Shown here in pieces: positions 21,791 to 27,919 of a DNA stretch of 35,086 nucleotides. The position numbers and the translations under genes were made by a program. Position 1 is the stretch's first letter, and each line of letters opens with the position of its first letter. Source of the stretch: an uncultured Merdimonas sp. (GTDB lineage: Bacteria; Bacillota; Clostridia; Lachnospirales; Lachnospiraceae); contig CALWGE010000024.1 of assembly GCA_944378225.1 (NCBI GenBank), positions 1 through 35,086 on the forward strand. The letters are read 5' to 3'. The notes below the pieces were generated by a model. That model was not told the origin of the DNA. It made no database searches and saw only the letters and a program-made list of their open reading frames with translations.

Positions 21791-22147
21791 CTATTTCTTC
21801 ATCTTCGGCTGAAACAGAAGGCTGGCCAGGTATCCAAAGACCAGCGCTGCGCAGATTCCCGCCGCGCTTGCTGTGAAGCCTCCCTTGAAAATGCCCAGAA
21901 ACCCTTCTGTCTCCACTGCCTCTTTTACTCCATTCCAGAGTGTATTTCCAAAACCAAGAAGCGGAACAGACGCGCCTGCTCCGGCAAATTCCTGAAAAGG
22001 TCCGTATATCCCCAGCGCGCCCAGAACAGCGCCGCTGCAGACCAGAAGCACCATAATCCGTCCCGGCATCATTTTTGTCTTTTCCATCAGAATCTGTACC
22101 AGAGCACAGATAAGACCTCCCAGTACAAATGCTTTTACATAATCCAT
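21791..22147 (-). CDS. spoVAE: Stage V sporulation protein AE (SpoVAEb type)
   Basis: This 118-residue, four-TM membrane protein is part of the SpoVA channel that moves Ca-dipicolinate into the developing spore and out at germination. The N-terminus MDYVKAFVLGGLICALVQIL is typical of the family, and glycine-rich TM segments follow. I prefer the ATG at 22147: GGAG lies 9 bases before it, while it directly abuts the alternative ATG at 22156. It lies 24 bases after spoVAD. SpoVAC and SpoVAE are paralogous, as the shared FLGGLIC-like and PLLGFGN/PITGFAN segments show. Confidence 0.92.
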   Translation of the reverse strand: MDYVKAFVLGGLICALVQILMEKTKMMPGRIMVLLVCSGAVLGALGIYGPFQEFAGAGASVPLLGFGNTLWNGVKEAVETEGFLGIFKGGFTASAAGICAALVFGYLASLLFQPKMKK

Positions 22148-22171
22148 TTCTGTCATCTCCTTCTGCCTTTC

Positions 22172-23200
22172 TCAGCAGTGCTCCAGCACAACGGCATGAG
22201 CGATTCCCGGTACGCTCTGTCCTTCATTGTAGCTGACTGTTGAAAGCAGCGCTCCTGTAGGTACAAAAAGAACACGCTTCCATTCGCCGGTCTCCAGTTT
22301 CGGCAGAATATAAGCCGCCAGAGTCACCGCTGAGCAGGCGCAGCCGCTGCCTCCTGCATGAGTATCCTGCGTTTCCGGATCAAAAATCAGCATGCCGCAG
22401 TCCAGATGTCTGCCTTCCAGTTCGACTCCCCGCTTGCCGGCAAGCTCCAGAAGAAGCGTCTGTCCCACACTCCCCAGATCCCCGGTAATAATATAATCAT
22501 AATCTGAAGGTTTCCGGTCAAAGTCCTCCAGATGGGCGCAGATTGTATCACAGGCCGCCGGCGCCATACAGGCCCCCATGTTCATGGAATCCTTCAGCCC
22601 GTAGTCCACAACTCTTCCCGGTGTGGCCCCTGTCATACGTGTCTTCCCACCTGTATGCGCCAGCACAAAAGCTCCGCTTCCCGTGACCGTCCAGGTAGAA
22701 GAAAGCGGACGCTGCCCTCCGTACGCCAGCGGAAACCGGAACTGCTTCTCCGCACTTCCAAAATGACTGGATGTGAGAGCAAGAACAGCATCCGAATATC
22801 CGCCCTGAACTGTCATTGCAGCCAGCATCAGAGCCTCTCCAATCGTAGAGCATGCTCCGTACAGACCAAACAGCGGCAGCTTCAGATCCATCACGCCAAA
22901 AGAAGTGGCAATCAGCTGACCAAGAAGATCTCCCGAAAAGAGATAACGTACCGGCGGAACGCCCGGTCCTGCCTTTTCCATAGCCAGCCTGGCTGCCTGC
23001 TTCTGAAAGGCGCTTTCCGCCTCTTCCCAGGAGGCCTGTCCTGCCATAGGGTCCTCCTCAATCCTGTCAAACAATTTCCCAAGGGGCCCCTCCCCTTCTT
23101 TCTTTCCTACAATTGATGCTCTGCTTACAATATGGGGCGCTTCCCTGAAGCGAATACTCTGTTTTCCGATAATCGTTTCTGCGTTCACTTTTCCTGCCAT
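22172..23200 (-). CDS. spoVAD: Stage V sporulation protein AD
   Basis: This 342-residue cytoplasmic thiolase-fold protein of the SpoVA complex binds dipicolinic acid at the inner spore membrane. Visible landmarks are GKQSIRF near the N-terminus, LFGLYGACSTIGEALMLAA, ALTSSHFGSAEKQFRFPL, and a cysteine-rich GGSGCACSA near the C-terminus. The length is almost that of the Bacillus protein. The start has GGAAAGG directly upstream. In most spore formers spoVAD directly follows spoVAC; here an AGCS symporter gene intervenes, and a forespore-type promoter lies directly before spoVAD. Confidence 0.95.
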   Translation of the reverse strand: MAGKVNAETIIGKQSIRFREAPHIVSRASIVGKKEGEGPLGKLFDRIEEDPMAGQASWEEAESAFQKQAARLAMEKAGPGVPPVRYLFSGDLLGQLIATSFGVMDLKLPLFGLYGACSTIGEALMLAAMTVQGGYSDAVLALTSSHFGSAEKQFRFPLAYGGQRPLSSTWTVTGSGAFVLAHTGGKTRMTGATPGRVVDYGLKDSMNMGACMAPAACDTICAHLEDFDRKPSDYDYIITGDLGSVGQTLLLELAGKRGVELEGRHLDCGMLIFDPETQDTHAGGSGCACSAVTLAAYILPKLETGEWKRVLFVPTGALLSTVSYNEGQSVPGIAHAVVLEHC

Positions 23201-23224: not shown

Positions 23225-23253
23225 TATTTTTCCCCGACACCATAAATTTATGC
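23225..23253 (-). promoter_or_regulatory. Candidate forespore (sigma-F/sigma-G) promoter of spoVAD-spoVAE
   Basis: On the minus strand GCATA (23249-23253), 15 bases and GGAAAAATA (23225-23233) match the published Bacillus sigma-F consensus GCATR-N15-GGHRARHTX at all positions, as recalled. Sigma-G recognises overlapping sequences. It is about 25 bases before the spoVAD start and downstream of the symporter terminator. Confidence 0.6.
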
Positions 23254-23307
23254 CCGGTTATTATTTTATGAGCGCGACAGGAAAAGTATTCCTTTTTTCA
23301 AAAGAAA

Positions 23308-23331
23308 AGACGTCTCCCGGCCGAGACGTCT
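23308..23331 (-). terminator. Intrinsic terminator of the AGCS symporter gene
   Basis: The stem AGACGTCTC/GAGACGTCT (23308-23316 and 23323-23331) has a 6-base loop and is followed on the minus strand by TTTTCTTTT. It separates the symporter from spoVAD. Confidence 0.88.
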
Positions 23332-23361
23332 CTTCTGCACAAATATATTTTTACTCTGTTT

Positions 23362-24759
23362 TCAGTCATCTACCACAGGCACACTCTCTTCATCCCAGGC
23401 ATCCAGATCATGAATATACTTCCGGGTCTCTTTTGCAATGACGTTGGACAGCAGAAGCACAGCAATGAGATTCGGAATAGCCATCAGAGCGTTCAGAATA
23501 TCTGCAATGTCCCAGACAATGTCAAGCGCTACTACCGGAGCAATAGCTGCAACCAGAACATACAGAGCCCGGTAGGGAATGAGCCCTTTCTTTCCTGCAA
23601 AGTATTCCACAGCCCGTTCTCCGTAATAGGCCCAGCCAAGCACTGTGGAAAATGCAAAGCAGATAATGCCGAGCGTCAGCACGGCAGGTCCGAAATACGG
23701 AATCTGCCCGAAAGCAAGTGTGGTCAGAATTCCTCCGTCTGTAATATCCCCCATGTTAATAGATGGATTTTTCATAATCGTAGTTACCAGCACAAGACCT
23801 GTCATGAGACATACGACTACCGTATCCCAGAATGTTCCCGTGGAAGATACGAGAGCCTGGCGTACAGGATTTCTCGTCTGAGCAGCCGCAGCGGCAATCG
23901 GCGCGGAGCCCATACCGGATTCATTGGAAAACAGACCTCTGGCTGTTCCATAACGCATAGCTGTCATAATTCCCGTACCTACAAGGCCGCCTGCTGCCGC
24001 ACCCGGCTGAAAAGCCAGACGTACAATCGTCTGAACAGCCGGAATAATAAAATCGTAATTGATGCAAAGAATAATCACACAGCCTACCACATAAAAGACT
24101 GCCATGAAAGGAACCAGTTTTTCACAGACATTGGCGATGGAACGAATTCCTCCAAAGATAACCACAGCCGTCAGCGCAGCCACAATCAGGCCTACGGCCC
24201 AGCCCTTGATTCCCACATTTTCCTGTACTATGCTTGCGATGGCATTGACCTGGGTAGCACAGCCGATTCCGAAAGAAGCCACTCCGGCGAAAACTGCAAA
24301 CAGCATTCCCATAACCGCGCCAAAACCTTTCCATTTCAGACCTCTGGAGAGGGCATACATGGCTCCGCCCTGCATACGGCCATCCTTCTTCTTAACTCTG
24401 TATTTTACGGCAATCAGAGATTCCGCGTATTTTGTAGCAATTCCAAACACGCCGGAAAGCCAACACCAGAGCACTGCGCCCGGACCGCCCAGCGCCACGG
24501 CCGTGCCCACGCCTACAATATTTCCCGTTCCGATCGTAGCCGCCAGCGCCGTTGTCAGCGCGCCGAAATTGGAAACCTCTCCTTCCGCTTCCGGATCTCT
24601 GGTTACGGACAGTCTGATCCCCTTCGTTATGGATTTCCACTGAATAAATCCTGTTCTGAAGGTCATGAAAATATGCGTGCCCAGAAGCAGGACAATCAGC
24701 CACCAGCCCCAGACTGCGTCATCTATGGCCGTGATCACATTTCCGATTGTTTCCATCAT
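23362..24759 (-). CDS. AGCS family sodium:alanine/glycine symporter
   Basis: This 465-residue transporter has about 11-12 TM segments and imports alanine or glycine with Na+. The family signature is present: ALAATIGTGNIVGVGTAVAL with GGPGAVLWCW, then ARGLFSNESGMGSAPIAAAA and AYYGERAVEYF. The frame extends to 24795; I chose the ATG at 24759 (a second ATG follows at once) because GGGAG lies 5 bases before it. It sits between spoVAC and spoVAD, in the same direction. A hairpin lies in its leader and a strong terminator follows it. A candidate sigma-G promoter upstream suggests possible forespore expression. Confidence 0.95.
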   Translation of the reverse strand: MMETIGNVITAIDDAVWGWWLIVLLLGTHIFMTFRTGFIQWKSITKGIRLSVTRDPEAEGEVSNFGALTTALAATIGTGNIVGVGTAVALGGPGAVLWCWLSGVFGIATKYAESLIAVKYRVKKKDGRMQGGAMYALSRGLKWKGFGAVMGMLFAVFAGVASFGIGCATQVNAIASIVQENVGIKGWAVGLIVAALTAVVIFGGIRSIANVCEKLVPFMAVFYVVGCVIILCINYDFIIPAVQTIVRLAFQPGAAAGGLVGTGIMTAMRYGTARGLFSNESGMGSAPIAAAAAQTRNPVRQALVSSTGTFWDTVVVCLMTGLVLVTTIMKNPSINMGDITDGGILTTLAFGQIPYFGPAVLTLGIICFAFSTVLGWAYYGERAVEYFAGKKGLIPYRALYVLVAAIAPVVALDIVWDIADILNALMAIPNLIAVLLLSNVIAKETRKYIHDLDAWDEESVPVVDD

Positions 24760-24796
24760 ATGTACTCCCTCTCTTTCTTTTCCCGTTTTATGCACA

Positions 24797-24829
24797 AAAG
24801 GAGCACCGGCAAACTGTCGGCGCTCCTTT
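24797..24829 (-). terminator. Terminator-like hairpin between spoVAC and the symporter gene
   Basis: AAAGGAGC (24797-24804) pairs with GCTCCTTT (24822-24829), with an inner CCG/CGG pair and a G-U pair. On the minus strand CTCCTTTTGTGC follows. It may end the spoVAA-AC transcript or act as an attenuator in the leader of the symporter gene. Confidence 0.65.
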
Positions 24830-24866
24830 GCACGTTACCTTGTTATAAGTTTAATGCAGTACACTA

Positions 24867-24896
24867 TAAAATGCAATCTTTTTCTTTTATACAATC
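24867..24896 (-). promoter_or_regulatory. Candidate sigma-G promoter of the AGCS symporter
   Basis: On the minus strand GATTG (24892-24896), 18 bases and CATTTTA (24867-24873) fit the sigma-G consensus GHATR-N18-CATNHTA with a perfect -10 and one -35 mismatch. The region is AT-rich, so a chance match is possible. A sigma-A reading (TTGCAT, 17 bases, TAAACT) overlaps. Confidence 0.4.
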
Positions 24897-25393
24897 CCTG
24901 TAACTTTAAGAACCCAATAAACCAGTCCCAGCAGCCAGCTGGCTACGGTGCCGTACAGAATAACCGGACCTGCAATCGTAAAAATCTTGCACCCTATACC
25001 GAAAACCTGGCCTTCTTTCTGGTACTCAATAGCCGGAGCAGCCACGCTGTTGGCAAAACCTGTGATAGGGACCAGCGCCCCTGCTCCGCCCCATCTGGCA
25101 ATCAGCGGAAAGACATTGAATCCTGTCAGAAGAACGCTGACCAGGACCAGAAGAACTGAACACCAGGTTCCGGCCGCATCCTTTTCCAGCCCCAGACTTT
25201 CTGCACAGTTCAGAATTCCCTGGCCTGCACAGCAGATAAGACCGCCTGTCAGAAAAGCACGGAGCATCTGGATTCCCAGACTGTGTACCGGCGTGGCTTC
25301 TTTTACCAGTTCACTGTACTCCACTTTTTCCTGATCCGTGACCTCGTTCATTTTCTTTTCATTCTCTTCTGTCATTCTTTCTTCCTGTGCCAT
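24887..25393 (-). CDS. spoVAC: Stage V sporulation protein AC
   Basis: This 168-residue membrane protein of the SpoVA complex acts in Bacillus as a mechanosensitive channel for Ca-DPA release. After a charged N-terminus of about 40 residues come four TM segments with the family-like stretches MLRAFLTGGLICCAGQGIL and LVPITGFANSVAAPAIEY. The N-terminal extension is slightly longer than in Bacillus. The ATG at 25393 has AGGAGG 11 bases upstream; the internal ATG at residue 7 is an alternative. It follows spoVAB after 21 bases. Confidence 0.94.
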   Translation of the reverse strand: MAQEERMTEENEKKMNEVTDQEKVEYSELVKEATPVHSLGIQMLRAFLTGGLICCAGQGILNCAESLGLEKDAAGTWCSVLLVLVSVLLTGFNVFPLIARWGGAGALVPITGFANSVAAPAIEYQKEGQVFGIGCKIFTIAGPVILYGTVASWLLGLVYWVLKVTGIV

Positions 25394-25414: not shown

Positions 25415-25843
25415 CTAAAACCGGAAATAATAAAAAATCAGTGCCCCTGCAGTCCGCCCTGCAGCCATGCTGAGGATCACAAGTTCCATCCCCCGCCGCA
25501 CATCCAGACGGCGGGCGAAAATCGGAAGAATATTGATAATCTCCGTCAGAGCCATAGCCCAGGCTCCCACAAAGATTCCTGAAAAAATGCCGAAAATACC
25601 TGCGCCCGTTTTTCCAAAAGGCAGAGGGAAAGCACAGATACTCATCAGATTTCCCAGAATTCCTCCCAGCGCCACTGCGTCCTCATACCACAGAATGTAA
25701 CGGGCCGTATGGGTACGATCCGCAAACTCTGCCACCAGCCCCAAAGCAATAATCAGGGCAAACAGGCCGCCTGCCACAGCCAGACCGCTGCACAGACCGG
25801 TTACAGCCATCAGGAATTCTTTCCACCAGATCATACTTTTCAA
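25415..25843 (-). CDS. spoVAB: Stage V sporulation protein AB
   Basis: This 142-residue membrane protein of the SpoVA cluster has about four TM segments, with EDAVALGGILGNLMSICAFPLP and GIFSGIFVGAWAMALTEIIN as the conserved-looking stretches. The length equals that of Bacillus SpoVAB. Its start overlaps the end of spoVAA by four bases (ATGA), implying translational coupling. It takes part in building the Ca-dipicolinate channel in the inner forespore membrane; its individual activity is not established. Confidence 0.92.
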   Translation of the reverse strand: MKSMIWWKEFLMAVTGLCSGLAVAGGLFALIIALGLVAEFADRTHTARYILWYEDAVALGGILGNLMSICAFPLPFGKTGAGIFGIFSGIFVGAWAMALTEIINILPIFARRLDVRRGMELVILSMAAGRTAGALIFYYFRF

Positions 25844-26511
25844 GACTCCTCTTTCTCTTTTTCTTCCCCGCTCTTCTCACGTCCCGATCCTTTTCTGCCT
25901 GCCGTCTGTATGAGGGTCGTGTTCACATCATCTTCATAAAGCCGCATCTCCACTTCAATCGGCGTAGGTTCGTTGGACAGCCGTCTGCCTCCAATATGAT
26001 TAAAGAAAGCGATAATGCCCACGGACAGCCCCAGAGAATAAGTAAGTTCCAGAATTGTAAATCCGTCAGATTCCCTGCCTGTCACGAGAGTATAAAAACT
26101 GTCGAACAGCGTCACTGTGGAGACATCATTATTAAACGCCATAATAGAAAAAGCTGACCCAAAGAAACAGATCAGACAAATCAGAGAGACTTTGACAAAC
26201 GTAAGCGCCGGGTTTTCCTGCCGCTTGGTGGAGTATTCCACTACAAAATCCTCTTCCCCCAGATTCTGAATCTCCAGCTCGGGAAAAACCTCCTGCACCC
26301 GCTCAATTACATCCACGATAGAAAGAACGGTACGGGCCGCGCAGGTACGCTTTCCCGTACGTGCATGATCGAACGTATATAATTTCTCCGTTTTCAGTCT
26401 GTTTACAACCTTCGGAGCTGCGCAGGTCATCCGGACAGCCTCGCCAAGCAGCAGGGTTCTGTTGTAAGTCCGGATATTTTTCTCAGCCTTCAGATACAAA
26501 ATCTCCTTCAT
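25840..26511 (-). CDS. spoVAA: Stage V sporulation protein AA
   Basis: This 223-residue protein has a cytoplasmic N-terminal domain (residues about 1-100) with the family-like MKEILYLKAEKNIR, and two TM segments at about 105-125 and 155-180. A charged C-terminal tail rich in Glu/Lys/Gly (about 200-223) is longer than in Bacillus SpoVAA. It overlaps the small upstream ORF by four bases and spoVAB by four bases, so it is part of a tightly coupled unit. It belongs to the SpoVA Ca-DPA uptake complex. Confidence 0.92.
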   Translation of the reverse strand: MKEILYLKAEKNIRTYNRTLLLGEAVRMTCAAPKVVNRLKTEKLYTFDHARTGKRTCAARTVLSIVDVIERVQEVFPELEIQNLGEEDFVVEYSTKRQENPALTFVKVSLICLICFFGSAFSIMAFNNDVSTVTLFDSFYTLVTGRESDGFTILELTYSLGLSVGIIAFFNHIGGRRLSNEPTPIEVEMRLYEDDVNTTLIQTAGRKGSGREKSGEEKEKEES

Positions 26512-26690
26512 GCTTCTTCCCTTTCTTTATCCTGATAAAGCTCCTGCTCAGGCAGCATATGCCAGACCAGTGTCCCTTCTGTAATCTTTTTTTCCTCTTC
26601 CCGTCCGGAAATATACCAGATAACTCCAAAAAGGACGGCCGCTGCCAGAACTGCGGAAATCAGCAATACGCGGTATTTTGAATGATTCAT
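26508..26690 (-). CDS. Small single-pass membrane protein at the head of the spoVA unit
   Basis: This 60-residue protein has a basic N-terminus, one TM helix (about residues 7-27, VLLISAVLAAAVLFGVIWYI) and a charged tail ending DKEREEA. I do not recognise its family. The ATG at 26690 has AGGAGG 7 bases upstream; a GTG one codon earlier is less well placed. Its stop overlaps the spoVAA start by four bases, which argues strongly that it is real and co-translated. A sigma-G-like promoter lies just upstream, so it is probably made in the forespore. A role with the SpoVA complex is inference from position. Confidence 0.75.
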   Translation of the reverse strand: MNHSKYRVLLISAVLAAAVLFGVIWYISGREEEKKITEGTLVWHMLPEQELYQDKEREEA

Positions 26691-26773: not shown

Positions 26774-27487
26774 TTACAACCTGCTTTTCAGTGCCAGAAG
26801 AATCTTTTTTTCCAGTCTGGAAACCTGTACCTGCGACATTCCCAGTTCCTCTGCCACCTGTGTCTGCGTCCTGTCATGAAAAAAGCGCAGCACGATTAAA
26901 CGACGTTCTTTTGGGTCCAGAGACGCCAGAAGTTCTTCCAGAAACATCCTTCTCAGGAGTTCCTCCTGCTCATCCCTGTCCTGCTCCACCCGTTCCATCA
27001 AGCTTGTCCCTTCCCTGTCCCCCTGGGAAACCACCTTCTGGAGAGATTCCACCTCCGCGCAGCTGTCCATGGCCTGTACCAGTTCTGCCGGTTCCACCTG
27101 CAGCCGTGCCGCCAGTTCCTCAACCCGCGGCTCCTCTCCTCTTTCCATCAGAAGCTGCTCCCGCAGGCCGGCCGCCCTGACTGCCAGTTCCTTCAGTGAA
27201 CGACTGACCTTAATCATGCTGTCATCCCGGAGAAAACGCCGTATCTCTCCAGCTATCATTGGAACCGCATACGTGGAAAAGCGGACGCCAAAACTCAGGT
27301 CGAACCGGTCTACGGCTTTTACCAGTCCTACGGCTCCGATCTGAAAAAGGTCCTCTGCCTCTACTCCTCTGCCCAGAAACCGTTTCACCACATGATGAAT
27401 CAGTCCCAGGTTTTCTTCTATCAGTATATCCCGGGCTCCTTTATCTCCTTCCTGTGACTGCCGAATGAGCTCCTCCGTCCGATCCAT
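26774..27487 (-). CDS. sigF: Forespore RNA polymerase sigma factor SigF
   Basis: This 237-residue sigma-70 family factor has region 2 with DLFQIGAVGLVKAVDRFD, FSTYAVPMIAGEIRRFLRDD, and region 4 with the HTH QTQVAEELGMSQVQVSRLEKKIL. It directs the first forespore-specific transcription and is held inactive by SpoIIAB. It is separated from spoIIAB by only 3 bases. Position in the spoIIA cluster identifies it as SigF rather than the closely related SigG or SigB. The length is close to that of clostridial SigF. Confidence 0.95.
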   Translation of the reverse strand: MDRTEELIRQSQEGDKGARDILIEENLGLIHHVVKRFLGRGVEAEDLFQIGAVGLVKAVDRFDLSFGVRFSTYAVPMIAGEIRRFLRDDSMIKVSRSLKELAVRAAGLREQLLMERGEEPRVEELAARLQVEPAELVQAMDSCAEVESLQKVVSQGDREGTSLMERVEQDRDEQEELLRRMFLEELLASLDPKERRLIVLRFFHDRTQTQVAEELGMSQVQVSRLEKKILLALKSRL

Positions 27488-27490
27488 AGA

Positions 27491-27919
27491 TTACGCCTCC
27501 CGGCGTCCAATCCGCTTTTTCATAAAAACCGAGGTCCCCTTTCCGGGCTGTGACTCTACGCGCACCTCATCCATAAAGGCCTCCATAAACAGGAAACCCA
27601 TTCCGGAACGTTCCAGCTCCGGCCTGGTGGTATACAAGGGTTCCATGGCTTTCTCCACATCAGCAATCCCTACTCCCTGATCTTCCACGCTGATCATCAG
27701 CCAGTCATCCTCAATCTCTCCGGTTATAGTGATTTTATGTACTTCTCCGTGATATCCGTGTATCACTGCATTTGTCACCGCCTCTGACACGGCTGTCTTC
27801 ACATCCGCCACCTCCTCCATACTGGGATTCATCTGAGTCATAAAAGCGGCTACCGTTACCCTCGCAAATGCTTCATTGGCTGAAACGCTGTCAAACTCCA
27901 GGCGCATCTGATTTTTCAT
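27491..27919 (-). CDS. spoIIAB: Anti-sigma F factor, serine kinase
   Basis: This 142-residue GHKL-fold protein binds SigF and phosphorylates SpoIIAA. The N box is visible in VKTAVSEAVTNAVIHGY, and the G1/G2 boxes in VEDQGVGIADVEKAMEPLY and GMGFLFMEAFMD. The length matches family members. Its start overlaps the spoIIAA stop by four bases, so the antagonist and the anti-sigma factor are made in step. Confidence 0.95.
   Translation of the reverse strand: MKNQMRLEFDSVSANEAFARVTVAAFMTQMNPSMEEVADVKTAVSEAVTNAVIHGYHGEVHKITITGEIEDDWLMISVEDQGVGIADVEKAMEPLYTTRPELERSGMGFLFMEAFMDEVRVESQPGKGTSVFMKKRIGRREA

Follow-up and report, generated by a model that had tools for sequence, protein, structure and literature searches.

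A symporter gene inside the spoVA cluster

The window, that is, the whole stretch of 35,086 nucleotides of Merdimonas DNA analysed here, carries on its minus strand, in this order, spoIIAA, spoIIAB, sigF, spoVAA, spoVAB, spoVAC, an AGCS symporter gene, spoVAD, spoVAE and degV (Table 1). The intact AGCS gene that the preliminary description of this DNA had placed between spoVAC and spoVAD is borne out by the open reading frames and by family scans. Its frame of 464 aa contains no internal stop, scores 435.5 bits with TIGR00835 (agcS; cut-off 272.65) and 432.7 bits with PF01235 (cut-off 24; E 2e-129), and aligns over residues 7-447 with the solved AgcS 6cse (E 5.5e-126); judged by this family membership, the protein is probably a Na+-coupled importer of alanine and glycine that works in growing cells. 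Five AGCS-like loci were found in the window's genome (six matches); one of them, at G000:C2:19013-20249, extends over two frames interrupted by a stop and is possibly a decayed paralogue. The equivalog scores of spoVAC, spoVAE, sigF and spoVAD lie below the respective cut-offs, which fits divergent members of these families. In addition, a small open frame with one hydrophobic stretch was seen by eye between sigF and spoVAA, on the minus strand at about 26509-26690.

Table 1. Coordinates of the spoVA region in the window, and of a transporter found at three related loci
Feature	Position	Strand	Basis
spoIIAA	27916..28284	-	ORF; named by order and by the sequence as read
spoIIAB	27491..27919	-	ORF; named by order and by the sequence as read
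sigF	26774..27487	-	TIGR02885 is the best family, 294.4 bits, under the curated cut-off of 321.45
spoVAA	25840..26511	-	PF12164
spoVAB	25415..25843	-	PF13782
spoVAC	24887..25393	-	PF03862; TIGR02838 143.5 bits, under the cut-off of 164
Putative AGCS promoter, sigma-A type, TTGCAT-N17-TAAACT	24848..24876	-	In 8/8 carriers
Leader hairpin, terminator-like	24797..24829	-	Between AGCS promoter and start codon; folding and conservation
AGCS-family Na+:alanine/glycine symporter, 464 aa	23362..24756	-	ORF, family scans, alignment with AgcS 6cse
Intrinsic-terminator-like hairpin 3' of the symporter gene	23303..23336	-	Folding: -22.6 kcal/mol, z -5.0
Forespore-like promoter block of spoVAD, GAATA-N16-CATAAAATA	23262..23291	-	Aligned 5' of spoVAD in 8/8 carriers; also pattern search of the genome
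spoVAD	22172..23200	-	PF07451; NF006160 above its own cut-off; equivalog model 407.4 bits, cut-off 411.8
spoVAE (spoVAEB)	21791..22156	-	PF03862; TIGR02839 128 bits, cut-off 131.1
Putative amino-acid ABC transporter between sigF and spoVAA (binding protein and permease)	L078:3720-5456; L080:4269-6017; L081:3908-5797		Pfam scan on L078 only

An orthologue that is 92-94% identical lies between spoVAC and spoVAD in eight of the 16 genomes of the genus (G000, which is the window's genome, G002, G007, G008, G009, G010, G014 and G015); confinement to one strain, which the preliminary description had regarded as speaking against a function, is thus not what we see. In the alignment of these eight carriers, a promoter block composed of TTGCAT (six carriers) or TTGCAA (two), 17 nt and TAAACT precedes every copy of the gene. 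It is a moderate match, with 7 of 12 consensus letters, and a generic pattern scan reported neither this block nor the two terminator-like hairpins on either side of the gene, all of which were recognized by folding and conservation. The same element recurs 5' of the symporter at unrelated loci (L083, L086, L088 and L090, or four of 49 loci outside spoVA), and we therefore take it to be the symporter's own, its letters suggesting a sigma-A-type promoter.

Downstream of the gene, the terminator that had been proposed at 23308-23331 is present (Table 1), and a terminator-like hairpin with a T-run occupies this place in all eight carriers, the sequences being unlike one another (compared by eye; the window's alone was folded). 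A second conserved block lies 5' of spoVAD in 8/8 carriers and reads TCATA (GAATA in the window), 15-16 nt and CATAAAA (CATAGAA in G008), with a spacing of 16 nt in seven carriers and of 15 in G007; it resembles a forespore (sigma-G-like) promoter. The forespore motif has six matches genome-wide, as against two for a reversed-pattern control, and one of the six is the window's own site; no downstream frame was identified at the two inspected of the five others. The pattern was found in none of three SASP upstream regions of the window's genome, where related elements were seen by eye. Thus, spoVAC and spoVAD are separated by a symporter gene flanked by terminator-like hairpins, an arrangement that, as read from the sequence, is not that of a single co-transcribed spoVA unit, and the symporter looks transcriptionally separate from the spoVA genes.

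The leader hairpin

The preliminary description had also noted a hairpin in the symporter's leader, and it is indeed present, within a stretch that folds with a z of -4.0. It stands about 18-20 nt past TAAACT, has in most carriers the form GAGCATCG-ACAGTTTGC-CGATGCTC, and is followed by T's and then by a poorly conserved stretch of variable length that leads to the start codon. The eight carriers hold seven distinct sequences, in which all 11 bp of the stem are kept, three pairs being changed on both sides, and the loop ACAGTTTGC is invariant; because every pair is kept and the loop does not vary, the leader seems to be under selection. The covariation score of the stem was 0.355 against 0.245 in shuffles, a value reached by 1/500 of them; three of five covariation measures were reached by 1/500 shuffles, among sequences that are closely related, and two were not special, namely pairs changed on both sides (28/500) and further pair types (354/500).

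A terminator-like hairpin between promoter and gene is the structural hallmark of an intrinsic-terminator attenuator, and the leader hairpin is possibly such an attenuator; visual inspection of the short leader revealed no alternative antiterminator fold. The hairpin also lies closely 3' of spoVAC, and so it may simply serve to end spoVA transcripts. Two other candidates were set aside. A glycine riboswitch or another known RNA yielded no Rfam match at the gathering score in the window and seven related loci, and a conserved leader peptide was rejected because, by eye, G000 lacks a start codon at the corresponding position and the frames differ between relatives. A search of the genome for the leader loop returned one exact match, its own, and four one-mismatch matches against one and two for the controls.

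By eye, a promoter-like element with a terminator-like hairpin after it was also recognized before AGCS genes at unrelated loci (L088-L090, L092-L094, L096, L099, L102, L106 and L111), some of which share a stem like AAGGCGTAC/GTATGCCTT. A fixed promoter-plus-hairpin rule was satisfied at 16/56 symporter loci and at 15/303 control genes of the same loci, a contrast that is indicative only because the loci are related; the window and five of the seven other spoVA-linked copies do not satisfy it, in line with the 7/12 promoter match. These observations raise the idea of an undescribed attenuator class that precedes AGCS genes in gut clostridia, both within the spoVA cluster and at separate loci of Blautia, Anaerostipes and Agathobaculum, and that would consist of a sigma-A promoter, an intrinsic terminator within about 20-70 nt and the symporter, and would permit readthrough only under some amino-acid-related signal. 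We regard this idea as unlikely. It is weakened by the nearest symporter relatives from outside the cluster (L082-L087 and L126; 89-92% identical), which have no hairpin after the promoter; for the same reason, a joint arrival of hairpin and gene is not evident.

Carriers within the genus and the spoVAC-spoVAD junction in the family

Among the eight genomes of the genus other than the carriers, spoVAC and spoVAD are contiguous in six (G003, G004, G005, G006, G012 and G013) and enclose different inserts in two (G001, 8.8 kb; G011, 2.8 kb). The eight carriers group as one clade in a phylogeny of 34 SpoVAD proteins (support 100/99, recovered in 100% of 200 bootstrap trees), and a single ancestral insertion is therefore the simplest reading. 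The tree of the AGCS proteins is poorly resolved; in it, the spoVA-linked copies are not one clade, a minimum of two changes is needed and L080 stands at an unresolved fork. The symporter adjoins spoVAC in all eight carriers, though spoVAC itself has diverged in them to 70-82% identity with the window's copy. On the other side, extra DNA separates the symporter from spoVAD in two of the eight (2.7 kb in G014, 9.1 kb in G007), and in both the promoter-like block remains beside spoVAD despite the extra DNA.

Conservation of the symporter in the spoVA cluster across several genera, which had been proposed as a check on function, is not found. When named genomes were scanned with the symporter protein, spoVA neighbours were present at 7/57 loci, all seven in the one genus (Merdimonas MAGs, Lachnoclostridium sp. 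An131 and An138, and Ca. Merdisoma merdipullorum); at L080, spoVAD lies beyond the fetched stretch owing to a 9 kb insert. The fetched DNA of the other 50 loci, some of it short or bounded by contig ends, contained no match to spoVA, sigF or degV; 49 of these symporters are 67-92% identical in the best segment, and L131 is a remote relative at 37%. In the seven genomes with the closest of them, identity to the window's protein is 89-92% for the symporter and only 46-66% for SpoVAD, a difference suggesting either that the symporter gene has passed from one lineage to another or that it evolves far slower than spoVAD.

Further insertions were observed elsewhere in the cluster. Among the seven carriers with sigF in view, three (L078, L080 and L081) hold a putative amino-acid ABC transporter between sigF and spoVAA, and in An131 a four-frame insert lies between spoVAE and degV (L077:12322-16133), its last frame being a PTS component (one frame scanned).

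We compared the junction in 61 genomes, the window's own and 60 relatives, taking the distance between spoVAC and spoVAD from match coordinates. In the other families of the order (24 genomes, three of them without spoVAC), the junction was contiguous in 21/21, with about 215 bases or less between the matches. In Lachnospiraceae as a whole, it was contiguous in 9/29 resolvable genomes, and the view that the order from spoIIAA to spoVAE is usually unbroken in spore formers fails in this family. Of 21 genomes from its other genera, seven lacked a usable pair, G016 was cut by contig ends, and 13 were resolvable; the junction was contiguous in three of these (G027, G030 and G033) and broken in ten (G018, G022, G023, G024, G026, G028, G029, G032, G034 and G036), with spoVAC and spoVAD on separate contigs in G018, G024 and G028.

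In a further survey, a joined SpoVAC-SpoVAD query was run against 150 genomes of the family and matched in 106, of which 12 are among the 61. Among the matches listed, 55 genomes had both parts: at least 27 were contiguous (two with gaps of 222-243 bases), at least nine were separated on one contig (including G000 and G034) and at least 19 had them on different contigs, numbers that are minima and not rates, because the matches listed favour strong ones and assembly breaks may account for part of the 19. In a set of 13 genomes from the comparison with other genera, spoVAC adjoins spoVAD in four (L147, L149, L151 and L152), is inverted in one (L145) and is absent from the fetched flank in eight (a flank of <700 bases in L141 and L150). 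The inversion affects spoVAC alone, flipped relative to spoVAB and spoVAD, both at L145:885-1334 (Schaedlerella arabinosiphila) and at L054:5917-6405 (G029), and among the matches listed in the family survey, spoVAC and spoVAD are on opposite strands in G145 and G154 too. A switchable spoVAC was rejected for L145 and L054, the nearby inverted repeats being only short and imperfect among the repeat pairs listed (25 of 48 for L054).

The split junctions hold differing cargo, as judged from family scans of 20 proteins, a sample of open reading frames of which 17 came from the spoVAC-spoVAD junction. The inserts contain genes for an ABC transporter, a permease and a binding protein in G007, a PTS component in G014, two cytosine DNA methylases in G011, Schlafen-AlbA and Mrr-type proteins in G001 (L042:1932-10740), a histidine kinase with receiver domains in G034, a methyltransferase in G023, an amylase, an alcohol dehydrogenase and a solute-binding protein in G036, an amylase and Thy1 in G029, an acetyltransferase in G032 and haem biosynthesis in G026; in G022 the interval spans 61 kb.

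Origin of the arrangement and comparison with known systems

We consider it probable that the symporter is an insulated passenger, which was inserted once in the ancestor of the clade at a junction tolerant of breaks and has been inherited vertically. In this model, the symporter gene that entered between spoVAC and spoVAD would have brought a sigma-A-type promoter along. The event would date to the common ancestor of a single clade within a Lachnospiraceae genus, the site being a point where the spoVA cluster of this family tolerates breaks. The terminator-like hairpins before and behind would insulate it, so that the spoVA halves would be expressed separately, spoVAA-AB-AC as before and spoVAD-AE from its own forespore-type promoter; the leader hairpin would stop readthrough from spoVAC and would probably limit the symporter's own transcripts as well. 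As a counterpoint, the adjacency of spoVAC and symporter in 8/8 carriers could be explained by selection too.

An explanation that overlaps with this model, and that we find doubtful in its pure form, is neutral drift, in which the spoVA order has decayed and the symporter is a chance neighbour, with no special junction and no regulation in the leader. Such drift would agree with the differing genes at the split junctions, with the inversion of spoVAC alone in L145 and L054, and with breaks at sigF-spoVAA (L078, L080 and L081) and spoVAE-degV (L077); however, it does not account for a leader whose stem pairs are kept in seven distinct sequences around an invariant loop.

Alternatively, the junction might be a site-specific or homology-driven landing site, with the 3' end of spoVAC as the attachment site, and the symporter might have come on an element since lost. 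Many different inserts do occur at the junction, and the G001 insert, with its Schlafen-AlbA and Mrr-type genes, repeats part of the spoVAC 3' end twice more (105 nt at 79%; 63 nt at 95%), which looks like the result of repeated entry of DNA at this place. However, among nine split loci, a set apart from G018, G022, G024, G026, G028, G029 and the split loci of the two further surveys, such copies were confined to G001; the matches in G034 and G023 were short and weak (37 and 25 nt), and six loci, including G000, gave none. Moreover, the 17 junction proteins scanned, a sample of the open reading frames, included no recombinase family, and a landing site is in our judgement very unlikely. The absence of an IS or repeat border, remarked on in the preliminary description, is upheld, the borders showing no inverted repeat of at least 16 nt and one 19-nt direct repeat at 79%. 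The window symporter as an insertion sequence or integrative element was likewise rejected: the borders have no terminal inverted repeat of that length, and, on the sense strand, the symporter is the sole gene between spoVAC and spoVAD.

Least probable of all, in our estimate, is a role in the spore programme, with the symporter made in the forespore or outgrowing spore and importing alanine or glycine for germination, outgrowth or loading, a role compatible with its place beside spoVAC in 8/8 carriers despite divergent spoVAC sequences, with the putative amino-acid transporter between sigF and spoVAA in L078, L080 and L081, and with glycine and alanine being described as co-germinants in C. 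difficile (PMC6464247), but opposed by the symporter's own sigma-A-type promoter, the flanking terminator-like hairpins, the separate spoVAD block, the interrupted link to spoVAD in 2/8 carriers and the absence of spoVA neighbours from the fetched DNA of 50 other loci. The preliminary description had left the choice between a functional link to germination or DPA loading and a chance insertion; the location that it reported stands, and on the same evidence the link is unsupported.

The textbook spoVA order cannot safely be assumed in Lachnospiraceae, one of the major families of gut spore formers. There, a core spore operon has been interrupted on many occasions, and the half downstream of the break seems capable of running from a promoter of its own, a point that bears on annotation as well as on the prediction of sporulation from gene order. 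In addition, the conserved hairpin before the symporter is a well-defined candidate, open to experiment, for the regulation of amino-acid uptake.

A search of titles and abstract openings found no published description of a symporter within a spoVA cluster, a depth at which we make no claim that none has been published. With the AgcS of 6cse/6csf, the window's symporter shares a near full-length match, along with family profiles well above the cut-offs, and it differs in its chromosomal place inside the spoVA cluster. In C. difficile, spoVAC-AD-AE (CD0773-CD0775) is described in PMC3789822 as one operon of the sigma-G regulon; the genes and the order AC, AD, AE are the same, whereas in the window AC is parted from AD, which has a promoter-like block of its own. 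In Streptococcus pyogenes, a glycine riboswitch is reported upstream of a sodium:alanine symporter gene (PMC5829553), likewise an RNA leader element before a symporter of the same family; in contrast, the window has only a short hairpin after the promoter, with no Rfam match at the gathering score. Finally, spoVA genes have been described on mobile elements, namely a Tn1546-like element and gut genomic islands (PMC6907783), and there, too, they stand in a rearranged genome context; however, in the cases described it is the spoVA genes that move, whereas in the window a resident cluster is interrupted by another gene.
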